Shown here one piece after another: positions 20,352-46,619 of a stretch of 64,000 bases of DNA. Origin of the DNA: Nitrospira sp. (GTDB taxonomy: Bacteria; Nitrospirota; Nitrospiria; Nitrospirales; Nitrospiraceae); contig BQWY01000001.1 of NCBI GenBank assembly GCA_036984305.1, positions 3,617,501 through 3,681,500 on the forward strand, read 5' to 3'. The translations under genes were made by a program, and so were the position numbers. The notes below the pieces were generated by a model, which worked only from the letters and a program-made list of their open reading frames with translations, had not been told where the DNA came from and ran no database searches. Every line of letters begins with the position of its first letter. Position 1 is the first letter of the stretch.

Positions 20352-20358
20352 GTCGGTA

Positions 20359-25079: not shown

Positions 25080-25916
25080 GTGCAGGACGTGCTGGGGCAC
25101 TTTCCGATCGGCGTCCGACGCGCGTGTGGGCTCCTCCAATTACCGCGGGCCTCCTGGTACTACCGGGCGCACCGGCGCGAGGATACTGCCTTACGGCGGC
25201 GGCTTCGGGAATTGGCGCAAGCGCGGCCGCGGTTTGGCTATCTACGTCTGCATGTGCTACTGCGGCGGGAGGGCTGGCGGATCAACAAGAAACGGGTACA
25301 TCGGTTGTATCGAGAGGAAGGGCTGACGGTGCGGCTCGCGCCCCGGCGGAAACGGGCGAGTCACTTGCGCGTGGTTCCGCCGCCCCCACAGCAGGCCAAC
25401 GAGCGGTGGAGCATGGATTTTGTGGCCGACACGCTGCTGGATGGCCGGCGGTTTCGGGCGCTGACCGTCGTGGATAATTGGAGTCGCCACAGTCCCTTAA
25501 TTGAGGTGGATGTGACGTTGACAGGGGCGAGAGTGGTAAGTGCGCTCGAGCGCGTGGCCAAGCACCGCGGATATCCGCGGATGATTACCGTGGATAACGG
25601 CAGCGAATTTGCCTCAAAAGCATTGGATGCGTGGGCCTATGCTCGTGGGGTGAAGCTGGATTTCATCCGGCCCGGTAAGCCCGTGGAGAATGCGGTGATT
25701 GAGAGTTTCAACGGCCGGTTTCGTGATGAGTGTTTGAACGCGCAGGTCTTCATCTCCCTACATGATGCGCGACAGAAGATAGAAGCATGGCGGATCGATT
25801 ACAATGAGCACCGGCCGCATAGTGCGCTCGGCGATCTGACGCCTCGGGAGTTCGTCGAACGGGCGGCCAAAACCGGGCTGCACGAAGGAGCGAATTTCCA
25901 GTTTTCAGCGGTCTAG
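25080..25916 (+). CDS. IS3-family transposase OrfB (DDE integrase domain)
   Basis: A 278-residue rve-type catalytic protein. It has an N-terminal HTH_21 region ([30 protein letters not shown]), then DDE residues in [10 protein letters not shown] (Asp), TVDNGSEF (Asp) and [18 protein letters not shown] (Glu), and the terminal [11 protein letters not shown] motif. It is mainly expressed as the OrfAB fusion through the A6G shift. GTG at 25,080 is the nominal start. It appears intact, so the IS may still be active. Confidence 0.92.
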
Positions 25917-25998
25917 TTTTTGGGGAGGTCTCAGAGCCAGGAGGTCACTTCCTCAACTTTGGTGTAACTGACGGGGGGAGGTCACACCCACATGCCCG

Positions 25999-26367
25999 AT
26001 GTGCGGCTGGCACACGACGCGACCTCTTGAGGAACTCGAGCGAGAGGAGTGCGAAGAACGCAAGAAGTACGATAGCAAAGGTGTCACGCCTCCACTTCGC
26101 GCTAGATTGGGACCACTCCTCAAACCTCCATCCGAACCACTCCCGCTTGGAATTAGCACTGCCACTTTCTTAGGTGTGTTAATCATCATGTCAGTACTTA
26201 ACTATCCAACTGGGCTTTTCAATGTAGTTCTCGCACTTCTTTCCTCTGCCGGTGTGTATTACCATTTCAAGCGCAATTACGATGCGACCTACAAAGCGTG
26301 GCGAGATTCAGCTGAGGGCGCCCAGGTATGCCCAAAGTGTTGGGCCTGCTTTCCTCAACAGCGTTAG
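25999..26367 (+). CDS. Small zinc-ribbon membrane protein, 122 aa
   Basis: A CxxC pair near the start (CPMCGW, the first Cys lying two codons before the ATG) and a second near the end (VCPKCWACF) form a possible split zinc ribbon. Two adjacent hydrophobic helices lie between (ATFLGVLIIMSVL, GLFNVVLALLSSAGVYY). The reading frame is open back to 25,972 with no start codon there, and GGGGGGAGG sits upstream, so the N-terminus may be truncated by the IS or misread at the G-run. It lies ~275 bp upstream of the TIR-NACHT gene on the same strand and may belong with it. Function unknown. Confidence 0.5.
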   Translation: MCGWHTTRPLEELEREECEERKKYDSKGVTPPLRARLGPLLKPPSEPLPLGISTATFLGVLIIMSVLNYPTGLFNVVLALLSSAGVYYHFKRNYDATYKAWRDSAEGAQVCPKCWACFPQQR

Positions 26368-26641
26368 TTCGGTGTCTCGGCGTTCTTCGTATCTGTTATC
26401 TCATGCCCTTGCGGTTCCTTCTTTAAACCAGTTCATAGGACTCGATTAAAATGGTTCCCCAGCATTATCCGGCCTAATGCAAGTATTTTCATTCCAAGGT
26501 AGACTTGACACATCTCCAGACTGGGACTAGCCTCACGCACATCATTCCCATGCACACTTAGACTTTCTGACCAGGAAACAACCTGCTAGGAAAGCGTCTC
26601 ATTAGCTAAGTGTCTAAAGGGCTAGGCTCAGGTAAGGCGCC

Positions 26642-29602
26642 ATGCAGACGGTTTTCCTCAGCTATGCTAGTCAGGACCAACAGAAAGTTGATCAGCTTGC
26701 GCATGATCTGTCCAATCAGGGAGTCTCGTACTGGCGCGATCGAGAGAAGTTGTATGCGGGACAGCGGTGGCCGAGAGAACTGGGTGAGGCCGTTGCAGAG
26801 CGTGATTGTGTGCTCCTCATATGGTCAGCGCAAGCCGCTGAATCGTACTACGTGGAATTGGAGTGGTGCACGGGGCTAGCGTTAAAGAAGGCAATCCTGC
26901 CATGCCGACTTGATGATACACCGTTGCCTGCAATCTTGAAATCGCTTCACTCCGCAGACCTCCGCCAGCCCGCCACGGCGATACCAAACGTTCTCAGATT
27001 TTTACGCAACGCTACAGTACCGAGAAATAACGAGCGCGAATCGGAGGTGATCAAGGAATTAGGGGAAATAGCAAGCAGTGATCCCAGGGAAGTGGTCGAG
27101 GCTGCACGTAGCCGATTCTTGCAACGAGAATGGATCATCAATGTCTTTGAGGGACCCGTAACGGTCATCCAAAACCCCGTCATTATAACGCCAGCCCAAC
27201 GAAGCTCGCGTGATCCTAACCTACTCACGCTCATGGCAGGTGTGAAACGGGATTGGATAGAAGGCTTTCGTAAGAATTCTTTGCATGGCGTAGTACAACT
27301 CGAGCTTGGAAAACAAACATACGATCGTGCCATTGATCACCCATTGAAGGAAATGATGGAGCTGGCGAACGAAAGTATCCAACCATTGCCACCGGGAACG
27401 CGCCTCATTGATGTCTTCAATAGTGCCGGAGGATTTCTCCTCATCCTCGGGGAACCGGGGTCCGGCAAAACAATTACGCTTCTTGATCTGACAATGGAGT
27501 TGATTACCTCGGCTGAAAGTGATCCGACCAAACCAATCCCAGTTGTTCTAAACCTCTCAACTTGGAATGAATCGGCTACTTCGTTAACCAGTTGGACCAT
27601 TGGAGAACTGAAATCCAAGTACTATGTGGGCCGACGACTTAGTGAAGCATGGCTCAAGAAGGGCCGTCTCCTTCTCCTTCTCGATGGTCTCGATGAAGTG
27701 CGAGCAAATGCCCGGGACAAATGCGTTGCAGCCATCAATTCATTTCTTGGCGAGTATACCCCCTCAGGCGTAGTGGTGGCTTGTCGTTCCAGTGAATACG
27801 AAGCCTTGCCGCTTCGCTTGAAGTTTAAGGCCGCAATTAAACTATTACCTCTCACGACCGATCAGGTCGATAATTTTCTCAAAACCGTGGGGCTTGAGAC
27901 CCTTCAAGCGGCGGTTAAAACGGATACCGCTCTGAGAGAGCTAGCTCAGTCACCACTCATGTTGAACATCCTGGTATTGGCTTTTAAAGACGAACAAAGT
28001 AGCGAGCTGGTTACGGGGGTAGACATCACACGACACGAGTTATACACGAAGATCATGAATCGTTACATTGACAAGATGTTCAAGCGAAAAGGCGAAGGGA
28101 AGCACCCCTACACGCGTGAGACAGTGATGCACAGCCTTTCATGGCTCGCCCAGCATCTAGTGGAGCGGTCACAGACGGTGTTCTTGATCGAGAGTCTTCA
28201 ACCTGATTGGCTCAGAGGCCGAATCGCATGGGCAACTTATTGGGCTGGCTCTCGTGTTGCTTGGGCAGTAGCGTACGTGCTCATCCTTGGCAGTGCCTCG
28301 CTTAGCATACTAGGCACTGGCCGTGTTCGTGAGGCAGCTTCAATATATTCACTTGTGGGAATCCCTCTCCTTTGCGGCCTTGGGATAATAACTGGTCTCA
28401 TCGATGGCAAATTGTCCGATAGGCGGCACAACCGGGGAAATGACTCAAAATGGAAGCGTTTTATATTACGCATACTGCAGTACGACATGGGCTACGTACT
28501 GATCATTCCTCTCTGTGGAATTCCTGCGTTTGCTTTTTCCGCTGGAGACATGGTCTGGCTCAGTTTAGCTTACAGCCTGGTGTATTTGGGACCAATAGCA
28601 TCGTTTCTAAGCATTCGGCGTGAAACCGTCGGTGAAATAAGAACGGCTGCCTTTGGTTGGTCTTGGAAACGCGCCGAGAAGGGTTACATTTGGACGCTGT
28701 TTGTGCTCGCTATCACATATTTTTTGATTGGCCCGCTTGTATTCGTTTACGCGGGAGATGTTCCAGGCTCCTTCCCTACGGGCTTAGCAGGGTCCTGCGG
28801 TGCACTGGCTGTCTTGGGTGGCCCCTATCTCTGGCGCCGGGTCCAGCAGAAGAAGAACGGATTGGGGGATAGTTTCCTATCAAATATCGGAATGGGCACC
28901 TGGGTGTCAGCTAGTATTAGGTTTACCTTATGCGGATACCTCGTTGGCTTGGTGATGTTGGTAGGGGTCCTTCTGTCTGGAGGAGGGCATACTCTGCTCC
29001 CCAATTTGGATCTATCTAAGATCGACATGCGCGCTATAGCCATTTTGATTGGGCTCATTGTGGTGGCTCCCATTGCGCTCTTTGTAGCAGTTGCGTGGAT
29101 GGGGTTAGCGGCCGCATCGTTTAGCGGCTTTAAGCCCAGCGCGATCGAATCAACGGCGACCCCAAATCAAGGAATAAAATCAACACTCCGTCGTGCACTA
29201 CTCACTACCATTGTTGTTTCCTTGATCAGTTCATTAATGTTTTTGGTGCCACTCTTGTTCATTTCGTGGACAGCGTCCGATAAGGAGAAATCGTTGCACA
29301 TAATACCGCTGTTGGAATGGTTATTTCTTGTAGTGACTGTTGGCCTGTGGCAGAGTACGCCGGCACTGCGCCACTATGTTCTTCGGGCTATTCTTTACTG
29401 TCAAGGACACCTCCCGCCACATTTCGTGTCTTTTCTGGATTACGCTGCCGGTCTAATATTTTTGCAGAAGGTTGGAGGAGGGTACGTTTTTATCCATCGT
29501 CTGGTGATGGAGCACTTTGCGAGTCTTGGAGGCGGGGCAGGGGCACCTCAGGTTCAGGCTACATCAATAGCAGAACTCGCAACACAGCGAGCCACATCCT
29601 AG
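26642..29602 (+). CDS. TIR-NACHT-transmembrane STAND protein (putative anti-phage effector)
   Basis: A 986-residue, three-part protein. Residues 1-~110 are a TIR domain (VFLSYASQDQQKVDQL; the catalytic-Glu region SYYVELEW, probably Glu74, fits an NADase). Residues ~255-450 are a NACHT-type NTPase: Walker A GEPGSGKT (270-277), Walker B LLLLLDGLDE (343-352), CRSSEYE sensor and SPLML. Residues ~545-960 hold about ten hydrophobic segments (VAWAVAYVLILGSASLSIL onward), so the C-terminus is embedded in the inner membrane. This replaces the LRR/TPR sensors of typical NACHT immune proteins. Its N-terminal ~165 residues resemble those of the double-TIR protein at 31,288-32,748, implying a joint function. 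A purine-rich Shine-Dalgarno (AGGTAAGG) precedes ATG 26,642. Its 3' end overlaps the convergent DUF72 gene by 44 bp. Confidence 0.85.
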   Translation: MQTVFLSYASQDQQKVDQLAHDLSNQGVSYWRDREKLYAGQRWPRELGEAVAERDCVLLIWSAQAAESYYVELEWCTGLALKKAILPCRLDDTPLPAILKSLHSADLRQPATAIPNVLRFLRNATVPRNNERESEVIKELGEIASSDPREVVEAARSRFLQREWIINVFEGPVTVIQNPVIITPAQRSSRDPNLLTLMAGVKRDWIEGFRKNSLHGVVQLELGKQTYDRAIDHPLKEMMELANESIQPLPPGTRLIDVFNSAGGFLLILGEPGSGKTITLLDLTMELITSAESDPTKPIPVVLNLSTWNESATSLTSWTIGELKSKYYVGRRLSEAWLKKGRLLLLLDGLDEVRANARDKCVAAINSFLGEYTPSGVVVACRSSEYEALPLRLKFKAAIKLLPLTTDQVDNFLKTVGLETLQAAVKTDTALRELAQSPLMLNILVLAFKDEQSSELVTGVDITRHELYTKIMNRYIDKMFKRKGEGKHPYTRETVMHSLSWLAQHLVERSQTVFLIESLQPDWLRGRIAWATYWAGSRVAWAVAYVLILGSASLSILGTGRVREAASIYSLVGIPLLCGLGIITGLIDGKLSDRRHNRGNDSKWKRFILRILQYDMGYVLIIPLCGIPAFAFSAGDMVWLSLAYSLVYLGPIASFLSIRRETVGEIRTAAFGWSWKRAEKGYIWTLFVLAITYFLIGPLVFVYAGDVPGSFPTGLAGSCGALAVLGGPYLWRRVQQKKNGLGDSFLSNIGMGTWVSASIRFTLCGYLVGLVMLVGVLLSGGGHTLLPNLDLSKIDMRAIAILIGLIVVAPIALFVAVAWMGLAAASFSGFKPSAIESTATPNQGIKSTLRRALLTTIVVSLISSLMFLVPLLFISWTASDKEKSLHIIPLLEWLFLVVTVGLWQSTPALRHYVLRAILYCQGHLPPHFVSFLDYAAGLIFLQKVGGGYVFIHRLVMEHFASLGGGAGAPQVQATSIAELATQRATS

Positions 29603-30491
29603 TTGTTATATTGGGATACTGAGTTGGCCGATCAGCCAAAATTTGAATAGTCAACGGCGCATTCCCCTCCGCCCGGTTGTTCACCAGCACGTAGGAGCGC
29701 ACGCTCTCCTTCACCGCCTGCCGTACCAGGTCCACCGCCTGGTTCCTCATTTCAGGTAATTCCTCCACGATGGCCGTATACGGCTGCGCCCGCTTCTTCG
29801 CAGCCTCGTATGACATCTGGAGGGGCGTGAGGAGGCGCACGACTGTGAAGGGCGCGGTGAATCCGCCCAGCCGTTCATGCTGCAGTGCGAGTGGCGGCAT
29901 GTAGCTCCAGTGGTTATAGACATGCGCGACCCCATGCGTGGCCAGTGTGTCGTGATACGCAGGACCCAGAAGGCCGGTATTGCGAATCTCAACGGCGTAT
30001 CGGAAGTCGCGTGGCAGCTCACTGAGGAACGCGCCCAACTTGGTGAGGAACTCTTGCGCCGGGATACCGTGGCGTTGGAACTCGAAGAGGAAGGGGCCGG
30101 TGTGCGACTGGAAGTTCGCCTCTCGGTACGGGGTTAGCACCATATCCGTGAACAACTTGGCGTCGAGGAAGCGCGGGTTCGCCTGCCCTGCCTTGGCACC
30201 GTACCGCGCCTGCTTGGCGAAGGTGGGGATGGTGATCTCCTCCCACACCTTACAGCACATCTCGAAGTCTTCGGGGACCTGCGTGGCGTTTATCGTGGGC
30301 GGGCGATAGAACGTGCTGTCATTTCCCACACAACGGAAGAGTGGCTCCCCGTCTGGGGCGTACTGCGCGTACTCCTCCAGGCACAGCTGCGAGAACTTGG
30401 ACTTGGGATACTGGCGTTTGTACACCTGCCCCTGCCAGCCTTCGTAGGTCCAGGTGGAGGTGCCGAAGCGGATAAGATTCGAGAGTGCCAC
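29559..30491 (-). CDS. DUF72 family protein
   Basis: A 310-residue TIM-barrel-like protein of the DUF72 (YecE) family, with the opening FGTSTWTYEGWQGQVYK, then NDSTFYRPPT, FEMCCKVWEEITIP, GPFLFEFQRHG, FRYAVEIRNTGLL and the closing YVLVNNRAEGNAP. The biochemical role of the family is unknown. The last ~15 codons (NITTRMWLAVLRVLLLM) are antisense to the 3' end of the TIR-NACHT gene and may be read-through past a lost native stop. It lies 19 bp downstream of the EEP nuclease remnant on the same strand, so the two were probably one operon. A second, unrelated-position DUF72 gene occurs at 55,167. Confidence 0.8.
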   Translation of the reverse strand: MALSNLIRFGTSTWTYEGWQGQVYKRQYPKSKFSQLCLEEYAQYAPDGEPLFRCVGNDSTFYRPPTINATQVPEDFEMCCKVWEEITIPTFAKQARYGAKAGQANPRFLDAKLFTDMVLTPYREANFQSHTGPFLFEFQRHGIPAQEFLTKLGAFLSELPRDFRYAVEIRNTGLLGPAYHDTLATHGVAHVYNHWSYMPPLALQHERLGGFTAPFTVVRLLTPLQMSYEAAKKRAQPYTAIVEELPEMRNQAVDLVRQAVKESVRSYVLVNNRAEGNAPLTIQILADRPTQYPNITTRMWLAVLRVLLLM

Positions 30492-30510
30492 CGTGGTTCG
30501 CCACTCGATG

Positions 30511-31224
30511 TTAGCGCAAATCCAACGTCAGCACGAACGGGCGGTGATCGGAGACACGAGGATTGGTTTGGTCCAACACCCGTGGGCTGACCTTTTTCGA
30601 CGCGTCTTTCACGGACTGGGAGATGAGGATGTGGTCGAGCTGCTGCCGGACGCCACGAAACTCGTAGGTCCACCGCGTGACCTGCTGGGTCGGGTCGAAG
30701 AACGAGTATTGCCCCGTCTCGATGAGGTCCTCCCAGATGTCATCCCTGCCACGGATGCGGCGTAGGGTGGGATCACCTCGGTCGGCATTGAAGTCCCCCG
30801 CCACGATGAGGTGAGTTCAGGCGTTCAGCGTGGGAAGGTAGTGTCGCCGCACAAACGACGCCTGCGCGAGCCGTTGCGCATCCTTCTCGTGTCCACCCAC
30901 CTCACTGGCGAAGTGCAGAACATAGAGGACGAACTGTTGCCCCCGCGCCTGGAAGGCTACACGCAGGCCCTTACTGATCCCGGTATCGTCCTCCTCCTCT
31001 GGCTCATCCAGCTCCTTGTCGTAATACTCACGCCCTGGAATCGCCCGGACGATCTCCGTGAGTGGGAACTTGGACAGAACGGCGACATGCTGCTGCGTCG
31101 TGTTGTCAGTGCAGTCGCACACCACCGCGTGGTCGCAGGTCACTCCGAGGGCCCGAATCTCAGCATTCAACTCCTCCACATCGGGCCGGTCGCCCACCTC
31201 AGTGAGGGCTAGGACATATTGCAT
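30511..31224 (-). pseudogene. Endonuclease/exonuclease/phosphatase (EEP) gene, truncated and interrupted by TGA
   Basis: One frame is open from 31,224 to 30,511 except for a single in-frame TGA at 30,817-30,819. The part before it has LTEVGDRPDVEELNAEI and VAVLSKFPLTEI; the part after has LIVAGDFNADRGDP and the terminal SDHRPFVLTLDLR. These are the EEP catalytic motifs (Glu, GDFN, SDH). The usual N-terminal strand (IATFN-type) is absent, so the gene is also cut at its 5' end. The same TGA is in both copies of the repeat, so it is a true mutation, not a copy-2 error. In the wider family these are Mg-dependent DNases or phosphatases. It is probably inactive. Confidence 0.75.
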
Positions 31225-31287
31225 TGGGAGGTAGCAAAATCCAGAAGAGAGAGAATACTGTGACGATCAGTTCCACCAGTATCGGTG

Positions 31288-32748
31288 TTACTGTTCTAGA
31301 GATTTTCTGACCAGCATATTCGGGTCTCCAAAGTGTAGGTGTTTCAGCTCCTCTGGGGGTGGTGCCTCTTGCACCGTTTCAAGCGGATGAAGCTGAAAAG
31401 CTATTTCGCCCTTCGCTTGCAAGGCGGTACGCCATTCCCAGGACACCCATGGAGAATTTTTCGCATGGTGTGACCAAAACAACAGAAATACATCTCGATG
31501 GCGGATTTCGTCATATAAGCGGGTCTTCCATTCCTCGCCTGGGGTCAACGACAAACAATCGACCCAAACATCAAGGCCCGCACTGATCGTCAGCGCAGCG
31601 ACTCGGTCCAGCACTCGTTGCCTGTCCGGTAAGGCATAGGATGCAAAGGCGGTTTGTGCGGGATGTACCGCTGTAGCCGTTGCTCTGCGGAAACTTGGCA
31701 CGCGAGAAATTTTGATGTCTAGTCGTAGCGTCGCCACAATGACATCATGTATAGACACATCATATCTAAGCGTTGTAGTGCCCAGTGGAGCATGTTGAGC
31801 GACGGTGACATCAAAATCGACTAGGCTATTCCCTCCTTCCCATGTGAAGGTTTGCCTGGGCTGCTGCACTTCCAAAAATTGACCGGAAAGCAGCACCACC
31901 ACTTCCGTCCCCCGTTTCCAGCGACAGATTTTTAGACCGAAGTGGCTAGATGAATCAGGGCATAAGGTAGCGAGCATTCTGCGGACTTTCTTCTCCAAAT
32001 CAGGCCTGTACGCTATGAACCTGGCAGTGAAGGATTGTCCTTGCCTTACTTTTTTTGGTGACGAACCACCTAATAGAACCGGTCCGGCATCACTTGGGTC
32101 GATACGGGAATCAGAAGGTGGATACCGACTTCGGCGTTTCCAAAGCTGCCACCATTTCGGCCGGAGACCAAGATATGGTACAGAGTCCGCGGGTGGCGGT
32201 GGACATCCCCTATGGTTGTAAATGTCGCTCGCCTTCCAATAGTCCTGATAGACATTGCCCTGGACACTCCAAAGCTGGTGTGCAAAGACGCTCTTCGCCT
32301 GCGCCAGCACCGGTCCCGGTTCCGTCGCGGTGATGCCGCCGAGTGCATGGATGACAGGCGCGCGCCGGTTCGTGTCTCCCGGTGCAGCAGTCCGCAGTGA
32401 ATGGACGAGGCCTTCGATGTCGCTGGCCCGGTGAGCATGAAGTGCCTTGAGCGCCGGTGCGAGCGGGGTGTCGTCCAGCAGACAAAGTACGATGGTCTTC
32501 TTGAGCGCGATGGCGGTGGTCCACTCAAACTCAACATAGTAGGAATCCGCCGCAGCCTTGGACCAGGCGAGCAGGAAGACATCCTGGTCTGCAATGGCTT
32601 CGCCCAGGACTTTCGGCCAGTGTTGCCCGCCGTAGATTTTCTCTTGGTCGCACCAGCTGGAGAGGCCCGGTGTGCTTGCGAGGTGAGTCGCCAGTTGTTC
32701 GACCAGAGGCAAGTCCTGGCGAGCGTAACTGACAAAGACTCGTGGCAT
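31288..32748 (-). CDS. Double-TIR-domain protein
   Basis: A 486-residue protein with TIR domains at both ends. The N-terminal TIR (VFVSYARQDLPLVEQLATHL; Glu in SYYVEFEW, about residue 75) closely resembles that of the TIR-NACHT protein, including the YGGQHWPKVLGEAI and LLDDTPLAPALKALHA segments. The similarity continues to about residue 165. A middle beta-rich region (LLSGQFLEVQQ, TFTWEGGNSLVDFDVTV, GTTTLRYDVSIHDV) looks like an immunoglobulin-like or binding domain. The C-terminal TIR (AFASYALPDRQRVLDRVAAL, DVFLLFWSHHAKNSPWVSWEW) again has a candidate Glu. TIR domains cleave NAD+ or make signalling nucleotides. An AAAAAAA run at 32,050-32,056 is the site of the copy-2 frameshift; copy 1 is intact. 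Confidence 0.85.
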   Translation of the reverse strand: MPRVFVSYARQDLPLVEQLATHLASTPGLSSWCDQEKIYGGQHWPKVLGEAIADQDVFLLAWSKAAADSYYVEFEWTTAIALKKTIVLCLLDDTPLAPALKALHAHRASDIEGLVHSLRTAAPGDTNRRAPVIHALGGITATEPGPVLAQAKSVFAHQLWSVQGNVYQDYWKASDIYNHRGCPPPPADSVPYLGLRPKWWQLWKRRSRYPPSDSRIDPSDAGPVLLGGSSPKKVRQGQSFTARFIAYRPDLEKKVRRMLATLCPDSSSHFGLKICRWKRGTEVVVLLSGQFLEVQQPRQTFTWEGGNSLVDFDVTVAQHAPLGTTTLRYDVSIHDVIVATLRLDIKISRVPSFRRATATAVHPAQTAFASYALPDRQRVLDRVAALTISAGLDVWVDCLSLTPGEEWKTRLYDEIRHRDVFLLFWSHHAKNSPWVSWEWRTALQAKGEIAFQLHPLETVQEAPPPEELKHLHFGDPNMLVRKSLEQ

Positions 32749-32885
32749 AGATTGCTGGCTAGGGAGACATCCCTACCACAATGTGGTAGCGGCCCAAGGG
32801 TAGCGCAACGCGTCGCAGCACTCAAGCCGCGACCAAGAAATACGGGTATTTTCCCATTTGCCTAGCGAACCATTCGACCCCTTTG

Positions 32886-33269
32886 CTAATAGTGAGCTCG
32901 TTCATTCCGTTTCATCTGAACCGAGGCTGTCAGATTCCTTTCTTCCGGTGAGTCATTCACGAACGGCAGGGGTAGCTGAAGCGGGTGCTCCTTGCGGGCG
33001 GCTGCTGCGCGACTGGGTTTTACGTACGACGACACCGGGGTGGGCATAGGCCCCTCGAACACCTCGAAGCAGGGCAGGTCCTCCTCGAATAAGTTGAGGC
33101 TATACGTCCGGCGCACCGGGGAGGCCCGCGTGAGCCATACCACGGTGAAGCACCACAGGTCCGCTGTGCGCCCGACCGTATCCACGCGGGCGAGCGTCCC
33201 AGTGGGTGCATCCCACCGGTCCACAACCACGCGCACGAGGTTGCCAACTATCACATCGCCCTTCGTCAT
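32886..33269 (-). CDS. Hypothetical island protein, ~127 aa
   Basis: I do not recognise this protein. From ATG 33,269 it begins MTKGDVIVGNLVRVVVDRWD with beta strands continuing (DLWCFTVVWLTRA, RRTYSLNLFEEDLPCFEVF), like a small barrel, and ends in a basic tail. The frame opens at a TTG at 33,314 without support. It is the last gene before the attR repeat, on the same strand as the double-TIR gene, ~140 bp away. Codon use looks like the island's GC-rich part. Confidence 0.5.
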   Translation of the reverse strand: MTKGDVIVGNLVRVVVDRWDAPTGTLARVDTVGRTADLWCFTVVWLTRASPVRRTYSLNLFEEDLPCFEVFEGPMPTPVSSYVKPSRAAAARKEHPLQLPLPFVNDSPEERNLTASVQMKRNERAHY

Positions 33270-33314
33270 GGCCCACCGGGGCGAGAGCCTGCCTGATTTG
33301 AGAGGGGGCGTCAA

Positions 33315-33738
33315 ACTATGAGGGGAACGACGCCAACAGAGGGGGTTTTCAGATAGAAATTGACCACCCTTAGGGAACCATAGGCCGAGGATTTTCGATG
33401 TCGAAAATGGCTCCAGGAGCGCCGATTCCGAGATTAGCGGGGGTGTTCCGTGGGAGGGATCGCAACCATGCTCTCGATATCAGCAGGTGCTAGAAATTTT
33501 TTGGGAGTCCCACATTGCCGGGGTACAGCCTACGCAAGGCACCCCCCGGGTCACCCTTCCCAAGCCTGGCCCCCCGGTCCCTCTGGCCAAGTGTTATTAG
33601 AGTGTTAGCGAACGAGGCAAATCGGTAAGATTCTAGACAGAATGAGACAACGTGAGATAGGCGGTCCTGATCGTAACTCACTGAAGAAGCGCAGGGATGG
33701 CCTATCATACCGCGTCCTTCAGCCGCCCCCTTGAAGCC
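33315..33738. other. Non-coding right end of the island
   Basis: No supported gene. It contains the right copy of the 19-bp end repeat (33,591-33,609) and two C6 runs (33,542-33,547 and 33,570-33,575), both shortened by one base in copy 2. A minus-strand frame here reads through the tRNA fragment (GPLIKSGFK) and is a false gene. Confidence 0.5.
33591..33609. repeat. 19-bp end repeat, right copy
   Basis: GTGTTATTAGAGTGTTAGC, 18 of 19 identical to 11,367-11,385 in the same orientation, 130 bp inside attR. It encodes the same ANTLIT peptide on the minus strand as the integrase C-terminus, so it may be either an arm site or an integrase relic. Confidence 0.45.
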
Positions 33739-33785
33739 ACTCTTAATCAGCGGGCCGTAGGTTCGACCCCTACACGGCCCACCAT
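33739..33785 (+). repeat. attR: 47-bp copy of tRNA-Lys 3' half
   Basis: Exact copy of 11,276-11,322, preceded by unrelated sequence, so no complete tRNA exists here. It marks the right edge of the island; backbone genes resume at 33,958. Confidence 0.9.
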
Positions 33786-33957
33786 ACCGCACCTCGTCAG
33801 TATCACCATACATGGGCGGAACACCGCGCCACTTCCTCGGCCGGAGGCCATTACCTGGCTGAAGTACTGAATCTCTTACCTCCGGCTCGGGAATGAGTTG
33901 AGGACTTCATTTCCCTTGTCTTGCGCTCTCATGCCGGTTTCAGTATCGTGCTAAGCC

Positions 33958-34863
33958 ATGCCCCCGGCGCCTGCGTCGCCTGAGCAACTCCTGGTGTTCA
34001 CTGACCTGGATGGCTCGCTCCTTGACCCTGTCACATACTCCTGGGATAACGCACGCGAGGCCCTCGAACAACTGTCCAGCCGAGAGATTCCGCTGATTCT
34101 CGTCTCGAGCAAAACGCGCGCGGAAATTGAACCGCTTCGGCTAGAACTTCAACATCGCCACCCCTTTATTACGGAAAATGGAGGGGCAATTTTTATCCCC
34201 CAAGGATACTTTATGTCGGTTTCTCAGGAAGCCCGCATTCGTGAGGGGTTCGAGGTCATCGAATTGGGAGCCCCCTACGCATCACTGCTTCGCGCACTGC
34301 GCGACATCGAGCACGCCGCCGGAATTCAGCTTCGCGGCTTCCACGACATGACGGTCGACGAAGTCGCCACCCGCACCGGCCTCACGCTCGACGAGGCCGA
34401 ACTTGCCATGCGACGAGAGTACGATGAGCCCTTCATTATCGAAGGCCCGCCCTCCCTCCTCCCGGTTATCCAGCGTGAGGCCGCGGAACGACAGCTCTCG
34501 GTCACGACGGGGGGTCGTTTCCATCATCTCCTTGGTGAAAGCGACAAGGGCCGGGCCTGCCTTCACCTCCTGGACCGCTACCGTCGGCACTGGCACCGGC
34601 CGCCCAAGTCCATCCGATCGATTGGTCTCGGCGACAGCGCGAACGACCACCCGATGCTGGAGGTCGTGGATGTTCCGATCGCGATTCAGCGCGCCGACGG
34701 CTCCTACGATCCAGACCTCCACGTAGCACATCTCATCAAAGCCCGGGGAGTAGGACCTGTCGGCTGGAATTCAGCCGTCCTCGATCAATTGGCGCCTCCC
34801 CCTGCGCGGACTCGACGGAGGCGCCAAGAAACCAAGCGACCTGCCCCCCCGAGTTCCAGGTAA
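33958..34863 (+). CDS. Mannosyl-3-phosphoglycerate phosphatase-like HAD hydrolase
   Basis: A 301-residue HAD-IIB (Cof-type) phosphatase of the MPGP family. Motif I is FTDLDGSLLD (nucleophile and acid Asp), motif II lies in PLILVSSKTRAEIE, the PFITENGGAIFIP segment is typical of MPGP/YedP, and the late IGLGDSANDHPMLEVVD holds motif IV. The family dephosphorylates mannosyl-3-phosphoglycerate to the osmolyte mannosylglycerate, but the synthase (MPGS) is not in the window, so the substrate could be another sugar phosphate. It ends with a low-complexity arginine/proline tail. A second, frameshifted copy is at 44,597-45,500. Confidence 0.85.
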   Translation: MPPAPASPEQLLVFTDLDGSLLDPVTYSWDNAREALEQLSSREIPLILVSSKTRAEIEPLRLELQHRHPFITENGGAIFIPQGYFMSVSQEARIREGFEVIELGAPYASLLRALRDIEHAAGIQLRGFHDMTVDEVATRTGLTLDEAELAMRREYDEPFIIEGPPSLLPVIQREAAERQLSVTTGGRFHHLLGESDKGRACLHLLDRYRRHWHRPPKSIRSIGLGDSANDHPMLEVVDVPIAIQRADGSYDPDLHVAHLIKARGVGPVGWNSAVLDQLAPPPARTRRRRQETKRPAPPSSR

Positions 34864-35055
34864 GGACCTGCATTTACCGGCTTGGCTTCCGTCTCGTGTC
34901 ATAGTATAAGAGGGCCATCATGCCCAGCCTGCATCGGCTTGACGTGATGTCGACACGCCTCTCACCGCTGGTATAGTCAACCGTCGTTGAGTCAGCACAT
35001 CGTCGATCCAATCAGCAGTCACCGCCATTCACTCTCATCAAAGGGAGATACGCGC

Positions 35056-35907
35056 ATGCGTTCATTGCTCGCTCTATCCACCCAGCGAATCGTTTTCGGA
35101 TTGCTGGTACTGGGATTACTCGGCGGGTGTTCCGGGAAAAAGATTTCGACCGGCGTCGGCGATCAAACCTCGACCCCCGGTCAGAAGGCATCAGCCCCGC
35201 CCCCGCCACAATCGGAAATCGTGACTGAGCCGATCCCTCCGCCTCCTGTAGAGGGGCCGGCTGAACCGCCGCCCCCGCCACCAGTCGTCGAGCCGGCGCC
35301 AGAACCGCCAACATCGGTTGCTGAGGAAGCACCGCCTGCGGCAGTCGCGGAAGAGCCAACGCCTCCGGCAGCCGAAGAGTCGCCGCCATCGCCGGTTGTT
35401 GAAGAGCCGTCGCCGCCCCCAGCCGCCGAGGAACCGCCGCCATCACCACCGGTCGCGGTTGAACCGGAGCCTCCAACTTCTGAAGCGGCGCCGGAACCAG
35501 CCCCGCTGCCACAGATCGCGCAAGCACCCGAGGCCAAACCGGTAGAGCCTCCTCCGCCTCCGATGGAGGAGCCTTCCGGTTCCTTGGAAGACGTGTATTT
35601 TGATTTCGATCAGTCAGCGCTACGCGAAGATGCACGGGCCACGCTGGAGGACAATGCCAAGCTTTTGCGTAACACTAGCGACGGGAGGGTCATTATCGAA
35701 GGGCACTGCGATGAGCGAGGCACCTCAGCCTATAATCTAATTCTGGGCGAACAACGCGCCAAGTCCGTGAAGCGCTACCTGGAGAATCTCGGCATTGAGG
35801 CCTCAAGCCTGTCGATCGTCAGCTATGGCAAAGAGCGTCCATTCTGCAAGGAGCACAACGATGAGTGTTGGCAATCGAACCGCCGCGCTCACTTCATTAT
35901 GAAATGA
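35056..35907 (+). CDS. pal: Peptidoglycan-associated lipoprotein Pal with long Pro/Glu-rich spacer
   Basis: A 283-residue outer-membrane lipoprotein. The signal sequence LLALSTQRIVFGLLVLGL is followed by the lipobox LGGC, with the Cys near residue 26. Residues ~45-170 are a proline, glutamate and alanine-rich spacer (PPPPPVVEPAPEPP repeats) much longer than usual, which could let the domain span the periplasm. The C-terminal OmpA domain has VYFDFDQSALRED, IIEGHCDERGTSAYNL and LGEQRAKSVKRYL, the Pal signature. Pal links the outer membrane to peptidoglycan with the Tol system, but no tol genes are adjacent. ATG 35,056 has AAGGGAG 8 nt upstream. A frameshifted second copy starts at 45,693. Confidence 0.92.
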   Translation: MRSLLALSTQRIVFGLLVLGLLGGCSGKKISTGVGDQTSTPGQKASAPPPPQSEIVTEPIPPPPVEGPAEPPPPPPVVEPAPEPPTSVAEEAPPAAVAEEPTPPAAEESPPSPVVEEPSPPPAAEEPPPSPPVAVEPEPPTSEAAPEPAPLPQIAQAPEAKPVEPPPPPMEEPSGSLEDVYFDFDQSALREDARATLEDNAKLLRNTSDGRVIIEGHCDERGTSAYNLILGEQRAKSVKRYLENLGIEASSLSIVSYGKERPFCKEHNDECWQSNRRAHFIMK

Positions 35908-35983
35908 GGCATCGGGGTGCCCCCGGAGACACCCATTCATTGCCGCACGGACGCATTTGCCTATCCGCGTCTTAAAATCGATA

Positions 35984-36021
35984 CCCAGGCTCCGATAGCC
36001 ATAAGGTTATCGGAACCTGGG
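35984..36021 (+). terminator. Probable terminator downstream of pal
   Basis: CCCAGG-TCCGATA on one arm pairs with TATCGGA-CCTGGG on the other, with one mismatch in the middle and a short loop. GCCATTTTCC follows, a weak T-run. It lies 77 bp after the pal stop. Confidence 0.6.
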
Positions 36022-36111
36022 GCCATTTTCCGCCCTTCCCGCAGTTGACTGCACTAAATATCCATCGCACGTCGCTCAACCTGACATGACAGCCGACGTC
36101 CGCTTCAGACT

Positions 36112-36458
36112 GAACCTATCTCAAAATTGTTACAGCAACAGTGGTGGGAGGGTGTTCGTGGAACTCGGTCGGCTGGCGAGTGGTGAGCCGCGCCAGCCTC
36201 GCCCTGATACGGTGATGTTGGGCACGCCGGCTGACGTGCTCGGCTTGGTTGGTCACCTCCAGGAGCAGGTCGGATCGTCGACCCGCAGCGGGTCTGGCCT
36301 GCGGGCCTCAGCCTCCACCATGGCGAAAGCTGGCGGACTCATCCCCTCCAGCCGTAGAAGAGAGGAGAGGGGGGCGGGACACACCGCTCGCAAGCTTGTC
36401 CCCGCTCGGAGTCTTCCGTCACGGTGTCAGGCTCAAAACACAATTTTAAGATAGGTTC
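36112..36458. mobile_element. MITE-like 347-bp element
   Basis: The terminal inverted repeats GAACCTATCTCAAAATTGT (36,112-36,130) and ACAATTTTAAGATAGGTTC (36,440-36,458) match at 18 of 19 positions. The interior has no transposase, only one low-quality 122-codon frame that starts and ends at the repeats. This is the structure of a miniature inverted-repeat transposable element or an IS internal-deletion derivative. The target-site duplication is unclear. Confidence 0.65.
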
Positions 36459-36640
36459 TAGAGCACCGGACCCCGGGTGTCATAGGTTTGCCGGGGAATT
36501 GCCGCTCACACATGCTCCAGCCTGCCAAGGAGCGAATTTCCAGTTTTCAGCGGTCTAGTTTTTGGGGAGGTCTCAGAGCCAGGAGGTCACTTCCTCAACT
36601 TTGGTGTAACTGACGGGGGGAGGTCACACCCACATGCCCG

Positions 36641-37009
36641 ATGTGCGGCTGGCACACGACGCGACCTCTTGAGGAACTCGAGCGAGAGGAGTGCGAAGAA
36701 CGCAAGAAGTACGATAGCAAAGGTGTCACGCCTCCACTTCGCGCTAGATTGGGACCACTCCTCAAACCTCCATCCGAACCACTCCCGCTTGGAATTAGCA
36801 CTGCCACTTTCTTAGGTGTGTTAATCATCATGTCAGTACTTAACTATCCAACTGGGCTTTTCAATGTAGTTCTCGCACTTCTTTCCTCTGCCGGTGTGTA
36901 TTACCATTTCAAGCGCAATTACGATGCGACCTACAAAGCGTGGCGAGATTCAGCTGAGGGCGCCCAGGTATGCCCAAAGTGTTGGGCCTGCTTTCCTCAA
37001 CAGCGTTAG
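36641..37009 (+). CDS. Copy 2 of the small zinc-ribbon membrane protein
   Basis: Identical in translation to 25,999-26,367 (CPMC/CPKC pairs around two membrane helices). It adds no independent evidence for the gene because the whole block is repeated. Confidence 0.45.
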   Translation: MCGWHTTRPLEELEREECEERKKYDSKGVTPPLRARLGPLLKPPSEPLPLGISTATFLGVLIIMSVLNYPTGLFNVVLALLSSAGVYYHFKRNYDATYKAWRDSAEGAQVCPKCWACFPQQR

Positions 37010-37283
37010 TTCGGTGTCTCGGCGTTCTTCGTATCTGTTATCTCATGCCCTTGCGGTTCCTTCTTTAAACCAGTTCATAGGACTCGATTAAAATGGTTCC
37101 CCAGCATTATCCGGCCTAATGCAAGTATTTTCATTCCAAGGTAGACTTGACACATCTCCAGACTGGGACTAGCCTCACGCACATCATTCCCATGCACACT
37201 TAGACTTTCTGACCAGGAAACAACCTGCTAGGAAAGCGTCTCATTAGCTAAGTGTCTAAAGGGCTAGGCTCAGGTAAGGCGCC

Positions 37284-40244
37284 ATGCAGACGGTTTTCCT
37301 CAGCTATGCTAGTCAGGACCAACAGAAAGTTGATCAGCTTGCGCATGATCTGTCCAATCAGGGAGTCTCGTACTGGCGCGATCGAGAGAAGTTGTATGCG
37401 GGACAGCGGTGGCCGAGAGAACTGGGTGAGGCCGTTGCAGAGCGTGATTGTGTGCTCCTCATATGGTCAGCGCAAGCCGCTGAATCGTACTACGTGGAAT
37501 TGGAGTGGTGCACGGGGCTAGCGTTAAAGAAGGCAATCCTGCCATGCCGACTTGATGATACACCGTTGCCTGCAATCTTGAAATCGCTTCACTCCGCAGA
37601 CCTCCGCCAGCCCGCCACGGCGATACCAAACGTTCTCAGATTTTTACGCAACGCTACAGTACCGAGAAATAACGAGCGCGAATCGGAGGTGATCAAGGAA
37701 TTAGGGGAAATAGCAAGCAGTGATCCCAGGGAAGTGGTCGAGGCTGCACGTAGCCGATTCTTGCAACGAGAATGGATCATCAATGTCTTTGAGGGACCCG
37801 TAACGGTCATCCAAAACCCCGTCATTATAACGCCAGCCCAACGAAGCTCGCGTGATCCTAACCTACTCACGCTCATGGCAGGTGTGAAACGGGATTGGAT
37901 AGAAGGCTTTCGTAAGAATTCTTTGCATGGCGTAGTACAACTCGAGCTTGGAAAACAAACATACGATCGTGCCATTGATCACCCATTGAAGGAAATGATG
38001 GAGCTGGCGAACGAAAGTATCCAACCATTGCCACCGGGAACGCGCCTCATTGATGTCTTCAATAGTGCCGGAGGATTTCTCCTCATCCTCGGGGAACCGG
38101 GGTCCGGCAAAACAATTACGCTTCTTGATCTGACAATGGAGTTGATTACCTCGGCTGAAAGTGATCCGACCAAACCAATCCCAGTTGTTCTAAACCTCTC
38201 AACTTGGAATGAATCGGCTACTTCGTTAACCAGTTGGACCATTGGAGAACTGAAATCCAAGTACTATGTGGGCCGACGACTTAGTGAAGCATGGCTCAAG
38301 AAGGGCCGTCTCCTTCTCCTTCTCGATGGTCTCGATGAAGTGCGAGCAAATGCCCGGGACAAATGCGTTGCAGCCATCAATTCATTTCTTGGCGAGTATA
38401 CCCCCTCAGGCGTAGTGGTGGCTTGTCGTTCCAGTGAATACGAAGCCTTGCCGCTTCGCTTGAAGTTTAAGGCCGCAATTAAACTATTACCTCTCACGAC
38501 CGATCAGGTCGATAATTTTCTCAAAACCGTGGGGCTTGAGACCCTTCAAGCGGCGGTTAAAACGGATACCGCTCTGAGAGAGCTAGCTCAGTCACCACTC
38601 ATGTTGAACATCCTGGTATTGGCTTTTAAAGACGAACAAAGTAGCGAGCTGGTTACGGGGGTAGACATCACACGACACGAGTTATACACGAAGATCATGA
38701 ATCGTTACATTGACAAGATGTTCAAGCGAAAAGGCGAAGGGAAGCACCCCTACACGCGTGAGACAGTGATGCACAGCCTTTCATGGCTCGCCCAGCATCT
38801 AGTGGAGCGGTCACAGACGGTGTTCTTGATCGAGAGTCTTCAACCTGATTGGCTCAGAGGCCGAATCGCATGGGCAACTTATTGGGCTGGCTCTCGTGTT
38901 GCTTGGGCAGTAGCGTACGTGCTCATCCTTGGCAGTGCCTCGCTTAGCATACTAGGCACTGGCCGTGTTCGTGAGGCAGCTTCAATATATTCACTTGTGG
39001 GAATCCCTCTCCTTTGCGGCCTTGGGATAATAACTGGTCTCATCGATGGCAAATTGTCCGATAGGCGGCACAACCGGGGAAATGACTCAAAATGGAAGCG
39101 TTTTATATTACGCATACTGCAGTACGACATGGGCTACGTACTGATCATTCCTCTCTGTGGAATTCCTGCGTTTGCTTTTTCCGCTGGAGACATGGTCTGG
39201 CTCAGTTTAGCTTACAGCCTGGTGTATTTGGGACCAATAGCATCGTTTCTAAGCATTCGGCGTGAAACCGTCGGTGAAATAAGAACGGCTGCCTTTGGTT
39301 GGTCTTGGAAACGCGCCGAGAAGGGTTACATTTGGACGCTGTTTGTGCTCGCTATCACATATTTTTTGATTGGCCCGCTTGTATTCGTTTACGCGGGAGA
39401 TGTTCCAGGCTCCTTCCCTACGGGCTTAGCAGGGTCCTGCGGTGCACTGGCTGTCTTGGGTGGCCCCTATCTCTGGCGCCGGGTCCAGCAGAAGAAGAAC
39501 GGATTGGGGGATAGTTTCCTATCAAATATCGGAATGGGCACCTGGGTGTCAGCTAGTATTAGGTTTACCTTATGCGGATACCTCGTTGGCTTGGTGATGT
39601 TGGTAGGGGTCCTTCTGTCTGGAGGAGGGCATACTCTGCTCCCCAATTTGGATCTATCTAAGATCGACATGCGCGCTATAGCCATTTTGATTGGGCTCAT
39701 TGTGGTGGCTCCCATTGCGCTCTTTGTAGCAGTTGCGTGGATGGGGTTAGCGGCCGCATCGTTTAGCGGCTTTAAGCCCAGCGCGATCGAATCAACGGCG
39801 ACCCCAAATCAAGGAATAAAATCAACACTCCGTCGTGCACTACTCACTACCATTGTTGTTTCCTTGATCAGTTCATTAATGTTTTTGGTGCCACTCTTGT
39901 TCATTTCGTGGACAGCGTCCGATAAGGAGAAATCGTTGCACATAATACCGCTGTTGGAATGGTTATTTCTTGTAGTGACTGTTGGCCTGTGGCAGAGTAC
40001 GCCGGCACTGCGCCACTATGTTCTTCGGGCTATTCTTTACTGTCAAGGACACCTCCCGCCACATTTCGTGTCTTTTCTGGATTACGCTGCCGGTCTAATA
40101 TTTTTGCAGAAGGTTGGAGGAGGGTACGTTTTTATCCATCGTCTGGTGATGGAGCACTTTGCGAGTCTTGGAGGCGGGGCAGGGGCACCTCAGGTTCAGG
40201 CTACATCAATAGCAGAACTCGCAACACAGCGAGCCACATCCTAG
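37284..40244 (+). CDS. Copy 2 of the TIR-NACHT-transmembrane protein
   Basis: Identical 986-residue translation to 26,642-29,602: TIR domain, NACHT with GEPGSGKT Walker A, multi-pass C-terminus. Intact because no contracted homopolymer falls inside it. Probably the same physical gene counted twice. Confidence 0.8.
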   Translation: MQTVFLSYASQDQQKVDQLAHDLSNQGVSYWRDREKLYAGQRWPRELGEAVAERDCVLLIWSAQAAESYYVELEWCTGLALKKAILPCRLDDTPLPAILKSLHSADLRQPATAIPNVLRFLRNATVPRNNERESEVIKELGEIASSDPREVVEAARSRFLQREWIINVFEGPVTVIQNPVIITPAQRSSRDPNLLTLMAGVKRDWIEGFRKNSLHGVVQLELGKQTYDRAIDHPLKEMMELANESIQPLPPGTRLIDVFNSAGGFLLILGEPGSGKTITLLDLTMELITSAESDPTKPIPVVLNLSTWNESATSLTSWTIGELKSKYYVGRRLSEAWLKKGRLLLLLDGLDEVRANARDKCVAAINSFLGEYTPSGVVVACRSSEYEALPLRLKFKAAIKLLPLTTDQVDNFLKTVGLETLQAAVKTDTALRELAQSPLMLNILVLAFKDEQSSELVTGVDITRHELYTKIMNRYIDKMFKRKGEGKHPYTRETVMHSLSWLAQHLVERSQTVFLIESLQPDWLRGRIAWATYWAGSRVAWAVAYVLILGSASLSILGTGRVREAASIYSLVGIPLLCGLGIITGLIDGKLSDRRHNRGNDSKWKRFILRILQYDMGYVLIIPLCGIPAFAFSAGDMVWLSLAYSLVYLGPIASFLSIRRETVGEIRTAAFGWSWKRAEKGYIWTLFVLAITYFLIGPLVFVYAGDVPGSFPTGLAGSCGALAVLGGPYLWRRVQQKKNGLGDSFLSNIGMGTWVSASIRFTLCGYLVGLVMLVGVLLSGGGHTLLPNLDLSKIDMRAIAILIGLIVVAPIALFVAVAWMGLAAASFSGFKPSAIESTATPNQGIKSTLRRALLTTIVVSLISSLMFLVPLLFISWTASDKEKSLHIIPLLEWLFLVVTVGLWQSTPALRHYVLRAILYCQGHLPPHFVSFLDYAAGLIFLQKVGGGYVFIHRLVMEHFASLGGGAGAPQVQATSIAELATQRATS

Positions 40245-41133
40245 TTGTTATATTGGGATACTGAGTTGGCCGATCAGCCAAAATTTGAATAGTCAACGGC
40301 GCATTCCCCTCCGCCCGGTTGTTCACCAGCACGTAGGAGCGCACGCTCTCCTTCACCGCCTGCCGTACCAGGTCCACCGCCTGGTTCCTCATTTCAGGTA
40401 ATTCCTCCACGATGGCCGTATACGGCTGCGCCCGCTTCTTCGCAGCCTCGTATGACATCTGGAGGGGCGTGAGGAGGCGCACGACTGTGAAGGGCGCGGT
40501 GAATCCGCCCAGCCGTTCATGCTGCAGTGCGAGTGGCGGCATGTAGCTCCAGTGGTTATAGACATGCGCGACCCCATGCGTGGCCAGTGTGTCGTGATAC
40601 GCAGGACCCAGAAGGCCGGTATTGCGAATCTCAACGGCGTATCGGAAGTCGCGTGGCAGCTCACTGAGGAACGCGCCCAACTTGGTGAGGAACTCTTGCG
40701 CCGGGATACCGTGGCGTTGGAACTCGAAGAGGAAGGGGCCGGTGTGCGACTGGAAGTTCGCCTCTCGGTACGGGGTTAGCACCATATCCGTGAACAACTT
40801 GGCGTCGAGGAAGCGCGGGTTCGCCTGCCCTGCCTTGGCACCGTACCGCGCCTGCTTGGCGAAGGTGGGGATGGTGATCTCCTCCCACACCTTACAGCAC
40901 ATCTCGAAGTCTTCGGGGACCTGCGTGGCGTTTATCGTGGGCGGGCGATAGAACGTGCTGTCATTTCCCACACAACGGAAGAGTGGCTCCCCGTCTGGGG
41001 CGTACTGCGCGTACTCCTCCAGGCACAGCTGCGAGAACTTGGACTTGGGATACTGGCGTTTGTACACCTGCCCCTGCCAGCCTTCGTAGGTCCAGGTGGA
41101 GGTGCCGAAGCGGATAAGATTCGAGAGTGCCAC
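40201..41133 (-). CDS. Copy 2 of the DUF72 protein
   Basis: Identical translation to 29,559-30,491, with the same 44-bp overlap with the convergent TIR-NACHT gene. Confidence 0.75.
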   Translation of the reverse strand: MALSNLIRFGTSTWTYEGWQGQVYKRQYPKSKFSQLCLEEYAQYAPDGEPLFRCVGNDSTFYRPPTINATQVPEDFEMCCKVWEEITIPTFAKQARYGAKAGQANPRFLDAKLFTDMVLTPYREANFQSHTGPFLFEFQRHGIPAQEFLTKLGAFLSELPRDFRYAVEIRNTGLLGPAYHDTLATHGVAHVYNHWSYMPPLALQHERLGGFTAPFTVVRLLTPLQMSYEAAKKRAQPYTAIVEELPEMRNQAVDLVRQAVKESVRSYVLVNNRAEGNAPLTIQILADRPTQYPNITTRMWLAVLRVLLLM

Positions 41134-41152
41134 CGTGGTTCGCCACTCGATG

Positions 41153-41866
41153 TTAGCGCAAATCCAACGTCAGCACGAACGGGCGGTGATCGGAGACACG
41201 AGGATTGGTTTGGTCCAACACCCGTGGGCTGACCTTTTTCGACGCGTCTTTCACGGACTGGGAGATGAGGATGTGGTCGAGCTGCTGCCGGACGCCACGA
41301 AACTCGTAGGTCCACCGCGTGACCTGCTGGGTCGGGTCGAAGAACGAGTATTGCCCCGTCTCGATGAGGTCCTCCCAGATGTCATCCCTGCCACGGATGC
41401 GGCGTAGGGTGGGATCACCTCGGTCGGCATTGAAGTCCCCCGCCACGATGAGGTGAGTTCAGGCGTTCAGCGTGGGAAGGTAGTGTCGCCGCACAAACGA
41501 CGCCTGCGCGAGCCGTTGCGCATCCTTCTCGTGTCCACCCACCTCACTGGCGAAGTGCAGAACATAGAGGACGAACTGTTGCCCCCGCGCCTGGAAGGCT
41601 ACACGCAGGCCCTTACTGATCCCGGTATCGTCCTCCTCCTCTGGCTCATCCAGCTCCTTGTCGTAATACTCACGCCCTGGAATCGCCCGGACGATCTCCG
41701 TGAGTGGGAACTTGGACAGAACGGCGACATGCTGCTGCGTCGTGTTGTCAGTGCAGTCGCACACCACCGCGTGGTCGCAGGTCACTCCGAGGGCCCGAAT
41801 CTCAGCATTCAACTCCTCCACATCGGGCCGGTCGCCCACCTCAGTGAGGGCTAGGACATATTGCAT
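41153..41866 (-). pseudogene. Copy 2 of the interrupted EEP nuclease gene
   Basis: Same as 30,511-31,224, with the in-frame TGA at 41,459-41,461 and the missing N-terminal strand. Confidence 0.7.
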
Positions 41867-41929
41867 TGGGAGGTAGCAAAATCCAGAAGAGAGAGAATAC
41901 TGTGACGATCAGTTCCACCAGTATCGGTG

Positions 41930-43389: not shown

Positions 43390-43526
43390 AGATTGCTGGC
43401 TAGGGAGACATCCCTACCACAATGTGGTAGCGGCCCAAGGGTAGCGCAACGCGTCGCAGCACTCAAGCCGCGACCAAGAAATACGGGTATTTTCCCATTT
43501 GCCTAGCGAACCATTCGACCCCTTTG

Positions 43527-43910
43527 CTAATAGTGAGCTCGTTCATTCCGTTTCATCTGAACCGAGGCTGTCAGATTCCTTTCTTCCGGTGAGTCATTCA
43601 CGAACGGCAGGGGTAGCTGAAGCGGGTGCTCCTTGCGGGCGGCTGCTGCGCGACTGGGTTTTACGTACGACGACACCGGGGTGGGCATAGGCCCCTCGAA
43701 CACCTCGAAGCAGGGCAGGTCCTCCTCGAATAAGTTGAGGCTATACGTCCGGCGCACCGGGGAGGCCCGCGTGAGCCATACCACGGTGAAGCACCACAGG
43801 TCCGCTGTGCGCCCGACCGTATCCACGCGGGCGAGCGTCCCAGTGGGTGCATCCCACCGGTCCACAACCACGCGCACGAGGTTGCCAACTATCACATCGC
43901 CCTTCGTCAT
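43527..43910 (-). CDS. Copy 2 of the hypothetical island protein
   Basis: Identical translation to 32,886-33,269 (MTKGDVIVGNLV...). Confidence 0.45.
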   Translation of the reverse strand: MTKGDVIVGNLVRVVVDRWDAPTGTLARVDTVGRTADLWCFTVVWLTRASPVRRTYSLNLFEEDLPCFEVFEGPMPTPVSSYVKPSRAAAARKEHPLQLPLPFVNDSPEERNLTASVQMKRNERAHY

Positions 43911-44377
43911 GGCCCACCGGGGCGAGAGCCTGCCTGATTTGAGAGGGGGCGTCAAACTATGAGGGGAACGACGCCAACAGAGGGGGTTTTCAGATAGAAA
44001 TTGACCACCCTTAGGGAACCATAGGCCGAGGATTTTCGATGTCGAAAATGGCTCCAGGAGCGCCGATTCCGAGATTAGCGGGGGTGTTCCGTGGGAGGGA
44101 TCGCAACCATGCTCTCGATATCAGCAGGTGCTAGAAATTTTTTGGGAGTCCCACATTGCCGGGGTACAGCCTACGCAAGGCACCCCCGGGTCACCCTTCC
44201 CAAGCCTGGCCCCCGGTCCCTCTGGCCAAGTGTTATTAGAGTGTTAGCGAACGAGGCAAATCGGTAAGATTCTAGACAGAATGAGACAACGTGAGATAGG
44301 CGGTCCTGATCGTAACTCACTGAAGAAGCGCAGGGATGGCCTATCATACCGCGTCCTTCAGCCGCCCCCTTGAAGCC

Positions 44378-44424
44378 ACTCTTAATCAGCGGGCCGTAGG
44401 TTCGACCCCTACACGGCCCACCAT
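44378..44424 (+). repeat. Repeat-derived extra copy of attR
   Basis: Identical to 33,739-33,785; present only because the block is repeated. It does not mark another island boundary. Confidence 0.8.
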
Positions 44425-46543: not shown

Positions 46544-46619
46544 GGCATCGGGGTGCCCCCGGAGACACCCATTCATTGCCGCACGGACGCATTTGCCTAT
46601 CCGCGTCTTAAAATCGATA

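Follow-up and report, generated by a model that had tools for sequence, protein, structure and literature searches.

The stretch of Nitrospira sp. DNA analysed here (64,000 nucleotides, referred to below as the window) encodes a protein with a TIR domain at each end, an uncommon form of an otherwise familiar type of immune protein. Judging from its sequence, we consider it reasonably probable that two NADase-type TIR modules of different ancestry have been fused in this protein, which likely serves as an anti-phage effector on a tRNA-Lys integrative element (Table 1). The original prediction of a TIR domain at both ends was borne out by two TIR_2 (PF13676) matches above the curated cut-off of 28 bits, one per end (67.8 and 59.8 bits), and by the TIR fold that the C-terminal segment adopts in a structural model. 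The Pfam match was spread over two stretches of the ORF (E = 4.5e-35) and, in a search of the protein's own genome, the two ends scored separately (E = 4.0e-18 at the N end and 1.2e-15 at the C end) within a single stop-free frame of 494 codons; two TIR matches in one open frame are far beyond chance. This is the only ORF to hold two of the 24 TIR matches in the genome. Relatives start at the same residue in the alignment, supporting the assigned start codon, and the beginning of the linker is common to the family of the N-terminal TIR (VQGNVYQ motif), after which it becomes divergent and proline-rich.

Table 1. Coordinates, within the window, of the double-TIR gene, its parts and its surroundings.
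Feature	Position	Strand	Remarks
tRNA-Lys 3' end, left 47-bp direct repeat, likely att site	11276-11322	+	
Tyrosine integrase (PF00589)	11326-12426	-	Adjoins left repeat
TIR-NACHT protein, 986 aa	26642-29602	+	Convergent with double-TIR gene
Double-TIR protein	31288-32748	-	486 aa, ATG start; coordinates take in stop codon
N-terminal TIR_2 domain, residues 1-115	32404-32748	-	
Candidate catalytic Glu75, S69-x5-E75	32524-32526	-	Alignment, PDB profile match
Linker, residues 116-209	32122-32403	-	
Middle strand-rich domain, residues 210-356	31681-32121	-	Without family match
C-terminal TIR_2 domain, residues 360-486	31291-31671	-	
Candidate catalytic Glu438, S432-x5-E438	31435-31437	-	Alignment, PDB profile match
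Right 47-bp tRNA-Lys repeat, likely att site	33739-33785	+	About 1 kb from double-TIR start
Second tandem copy of 25885-36526	36527-47162		Directly after copy 1
Copy 2 of double-TIR gene	41930-43389	-	Two ORFs, split by T7-to-T6 difference

Among described TIR systems, ThcB4 (type III) failed as a full-length family match (42.2 bits vs. a cut-off of 220), and the models of Thoeris ThsB matched TIR stretches only, without a full-length family match. The top PADLOC match was a SAVED_TIR model whose best stretch covered only positions 8-110 of 404, and Pfam gave no match to a SAVED domain in the double-TIR protein. A PDB search with the single double-TIR sequence returned nothing at E ≤ 0.01; a profile made from an alignment of seven TIRs matched 53 distinct PDB sequences at that threshold, Cat1 and SARM1 leading. 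E75 and E438 occupy an invariant Glu column of this alignment, in which both residues of the SY motif (Ser and Tyr), two more Ser and one Asp, Gly and Trp each are invariant as well. The conserved Glu aligns with residue 86 of SARM1 in 6o0u, which is E642 when counted from the chain range of 7knq and is the residue named in the title of PDB entry 7cm7 (E642A). According to the available excerpts of PMC12162218, the active site of Cat1 is lined in cis by S7, D33, S68 and E74; by our reading of the alignments these correspond to S7, D34, S69 and E75 at the N end and to S370, D397, S432 and E438 at the C end of the double-TIR protein. The candidate catalytic Glu that had been proposed for each TIR, within an S-x5-E pattern, is thus present in both, aligned with the SARM1 Glu, and neither site has decayed.

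An AlphaFold2 model of the whole protein from its single sequence reached a pLDDT of 34.5, too low for use. In a second run, restricted to residues 205-486 and supplied with four TIR rows drawn from this window and related loci, the C-terminal TIR core showed the expected alternation of strands and helices, with block pLDDT values of 60-86. The best Foldseek matches of this model were TIR-APAZ proteins, SARM1 also being listed, and the comparison effectively covered the TIR part of the model. With VIA-align, the C-terminal TIR (C-TIR) scored Z = 14.1 against the TIR-APAZ entry 8ifl (rmsd 2.9, 117 aligned) and Z = 11.8 against SARM1 6o0u, with nucleoside deoxyribosyltransferases, which share the fold, at Z of about 12-13. 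The C-terminal segment therefore folds as a TIR domain in the model.

The two ends have different origins. Maximum-likelihood analysis of 33 TIR rows (31 of them different) placed the N-terminal TIR (N-TIR) inside a 13-row clade of its own family (support 99/96), whereas the C-TIR joined genomes G106 and G117 and a plasmid protein in a clade of four rows (100/99); many other forks of the tree are weakly supported. Because the N-TIR and C-TIR lie in separate clades, both well supported, we read the gene as two effector modules of different ancestry joined together and reject duplication of a single TIR within the protein. A protein search gave matches in 41 of 175 genomes, many simply to any TIR.

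The family that includes residues 1-203 occurs in several Nitrospiraceae genomes. Its layout is TIR, conserved linker and then varying C-terminal parts, among them TPRs, a NACHT protein and a segment that reads in the sequences as membrane-helix-like and is followed by a strand-rich domain. Members (L042, L048 and others) resemble the window protein in the N-TIR and the start of the linker, most of them at 53-64% identity, and in many the C-terminal part differs, being the membrane-helix-like segment plus a different strand-rich domain, which in the one member checked (L053) is CarboxypepD_reg (Pfam). After the N-TIR, the linker of L042, L048 and their relatives reads VQGNVYQAGGDIHIH, which is degenerate in the window protein (32209-32271); in the relatives this stretch may resemble amyloid signalling motifs. 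A shared gene lies near the family gene in 12 of the 19 compared stretches (L039-L056) and contains two ABC domains in the one case checked (L040); we presume it to be an 'ABC-F' gene. An overlapping gene is often found downstream of the N-TIR family gene, with TPR matches in four of the six such genes checked. This arrangement of ABC-F-like gene, N-TIR gene and downstream gene suggests a conserved Nitrospiraceae defence locus.

The second module comprises residues from about 210 to 486, that is, the middle domain and the C-TIR. When its profile was run against 175 Nitrospiraceae genomes and 395 from the phylum (the two sets overlap), the whole module turned up only in the window genome, in both copies, and in G117; G106 yielded the C-TIR end alone. 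The G117 protein (L041, 859 aa) shares the middle domain and C-TIR (36.7% identity over residues 278-475) but carries HEAT repeats where the window protein has its N-terminal TIR. Among 72,556 plasmid records, one cyanobacterial protein contained the module (L069, WP_015211574.1 of an Allocoleopsis franciscana PCC 7113 plasmid; 32% identity over residues 177-475). It is similar in length to the window protein and its neighbours are caspase-like genes; its N-terminal half is perhaps TIR-like but not clearly so, with two Pfam TIR_2 stretches at E ≤ 1 and a profile-comparison probability of 4.6%. Phage records gave no match, and scans of viral contigs for relatives gave one phage contig only (L070, the same as L071).

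The middle domain, common to L041 and L069, was predicted as strands and one helix, mostly below pLDDT 60. It had been described as beta-rich and immunoglobulin-like; the strand-rich character stands, weakly, in this low-pLDDT model, and the immunoglobulin-like assignment is at most conjectural at this model confidence. Pfam gave no match at E ≤ 1. NCBIfam and PHROG likewise gave no match of its own at E ≤ 1, and the best hit of its profile in the PDB was at E = 0.45. One match to the profile in G131 (E = 0.04) falls, from a reading of the sequence, in an apparent valyl-tRNA synthetase and was set aside as chance. The domain accompanies the C-TIR both in Nitrospiraceae and on a cyanobacterial plasmid and is unnamed in the libraries searched, a candidate adaptor domain.

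A broken relic in G106 (L040) retains the first 53 residues of the N-TIR, with the C-TIR about 260 bp on, at a chromosomal site that is occupied by the N-TIR gene in other genomes; at least two genera have therefore had the fusion or its component parts. Pairwise counts for the window N-TIR against six relatives gave pN of 0.20-0.24 and pS of 0.72-0.77, and those for the C-TIR against G106 gave pN of 0.16 and pS of 0.78, ratios that are rough since synonymous sites are near saturation. On these counts, both TIRs look to be held by selection. Both also have longer branches in the tree than most relatives (0.53 for the window N-TIR vs. 0.07-0.27 for the other N-family rows of the 13-row clade; 0.36 for the window C-TIR vs. 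0.094 for that of G106), which could reflect loosened constraint.

The arrangement had also been called rare among bacterial TIR proteins, which is roughly right in that multi-TIR chains are uncommon; it is not unique, given a TIR-nSTAND1-TIR protein and a triple-TIR protein in the same family, Nitrospiraceae. Among the matches listed for 175 genomes, at least one ORF had two TIR_2 matches, the TIR-nSTAND1-TIR protein of G127, a lower bound given that the triple-TIR protein of G103 has a single row among those matches. The G127 protein (L072, 2728-5244, 839 aa) has TIR_2 at both ends like the window protein but a STAND NTPase (nSTAND1) in the middle, and its TIRs fall outside both window clades in the tree. 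That of G103 (L050, 4438-5898) has several TIR_2 domains in a chain of near-equal length (487 aa) and adjoins a related TIR-NACHT gene; it differs in having three TIRs and lacks a recognised middle domain of the window type, and is at most a candidate orthologue. A phage contig has a TIR together with a CAP12-type TIR, and TirE of Dictyostelium is described in the excerpts available of PMC13142454 as having two diverged tandem TIRs. In the literature on double or tandem bacterial TIRs, the present architecture occurred in no title or abstract found, its absence from print being unproven.

How such a chain might work is suggested by SpbK and Cat1, in which, according to the available parts of the two reports, the NADase site lies between two stacked TIRs and is activated by clustering (PMC12847820, PMC12162218). 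We read the double-TIR protein as an intracellular, stacking-activated NADase effector because SpbK and Cat1 work by head-to-tail TIR stacking; they share its catalytic Glu pattern, activation by stacking being a proposed analogy, and differ in having one TIR per chain, accompanied by a portal-binding domain or a CARF sensor. The N-TIR comes from the Nitrospiraceae family in which it is normally backed by a membrane-helix-like segment or another domain, and the C-terminal module of strand-rich domain and TIR is one that elsewhere comes after HEAT repeats. Infection would cluster the double-TIR chains, whose TIRs would stack head-to-tail into composite active sites and cleave NAD+ in the manner of abortive infection. 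Several points count against this effector reading: the protein has no recognised sensor domain, it lacks the membrane-helix-like segment of many N-TIR family members, both of its TIRs have long branches, no trace of the fusion came to light elsewhere except the G106 relic, which is broken, and the second copy in the window is frame-broken, though probably through sequencing error.

A possible but unlikely alternative is that the protein is a bridging adaptor in a receptor-to-effector relay, its N-TIR docking on the TIR of the TIR-NACHT protein and its C-TIR performing or nucleating catalysis. The TIR of the TIR-NACHT protein groups with the N-TIR clade (98/96) and has its highest identity in the tree set, 53%, with the window N-TIR; both genes lie on a single element and are transcribed towards each other and, in G103, the related TIR-NACHT gene is likewise convergent with the triple-TIR gene, across a gap of about 260 bp. 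However, a DUF72 gene and a broken endonuclease/exonuclease/phosphatase (EEP) gene separate the two genes in the window, TIR genes might gather in defence regions regardless, and pairing of TIR-NACHT with a multi-TIR protein is unsupported as a regular rule: a multi-TIR neighbour occurs at only two of 11 TIR-NACHT loci (the window and G103), at one further locus (L128) there are separate TIR ORFs close by, and the remaining eight have none beyond TIR pieces adjoining the NACHT ORF, several of the stretches compared ending at contig ends. More specifically, and distinctly unlikely in our view, one end of the chain might take the TIR-NACHT signal by TIR-TIR contact and the end of the other lineage might cleave NAD+. 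Were such a two-ended bridge real, a single fused prokaryotic chain would mirror the logic of the TIR relay between receptor and adaptor in animals. The double-TIR chain bears on whether bacteria use receptor-effector TIR-TIR relays and, with two intact TIRs of different ancestry per chain, the question of which scaffolds and which cleaves becomes directly addressable.

We also think it unlikely that one chain, or a pair of chains, holds N-TIR against C-TIR in a fixed heterotypic head-to-tail contact that would lower the number of chains required for an active site, although an internal TIR-TIR interface of a single chain had been proposed originally. Such a built-in pair would accord with the catalytic-type Glu at both ends and with TIR active sites being composite across two TIRs, but in the systems as described in the available portions of these same reports the partners come from different chains (PMC12847820, PMC12162218); moreover, the two TIRs here belong to different clades, and the full-length model attained only the low pLDDT given above.

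The second tandem copy of the region differs from copy 1 by six 1-base homopolymer shortenings and zero substitutions, which rules it out as a separate paralogue. This 10.6-kb duplication covers the element's end together with chromosomal genes beside it and is either a recent duplication or an assembly artefact. Copy 1 is probably the correct reading, because its ORFs for an OmpA-family protein and a HAD hydrolase are longer (306 and 301 aa vs. 259 and 255 aa in copy 2), and the frame break in the double-TIR gene of copy 2, at the T6/T7 run that lies at 32050-32056 in copy 1, is probably a sequencing error. The weakest explanation, a chance gene fusion en route to decay with a non-functional product, would fit the long branches of both window TIRs, the broken relic in G106, the frame-broken second copy and the in-frame interruption of the neighbouring EEP gene, but is very unlikely given the strong synonymous excess at both TIRs (pairwise pN/pS averages the whole history and is compatible with recent decay), the retention of both Glu residues and 486 open codons.

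The double-TIR gene sits at one end of a 22.5-kb element bounded by the tRNA-Lys repeats, in the company of the TIR-NACHT gene and other defence-like genes, a setting in line with the proposed effector role. The element's further genes include a DNA methyltransferase, a HerA-like protein, an MqsA-type antitoxin and an integrase-core transposase. The EEP gene (30511-31224), which separates the TIR-NACHT gene from the double-TIR gene, is broken by an in-frame stop, and both copies of the duplication are the same at that point. In L128 (G039), whose TIR-NACHT protein belongs to the same group as that of the window, a WD40 protein with a C-terminal TIR is encoded directly upstream of the TIR-NACHT gene (4380-7415 and 8029-10791). 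Inside the element, the region 18261-23351 encodes, besides a HerA/DUF87 protein, one that matches ParA-type, TPR and PDC-M28B models, possibly a further defence system.
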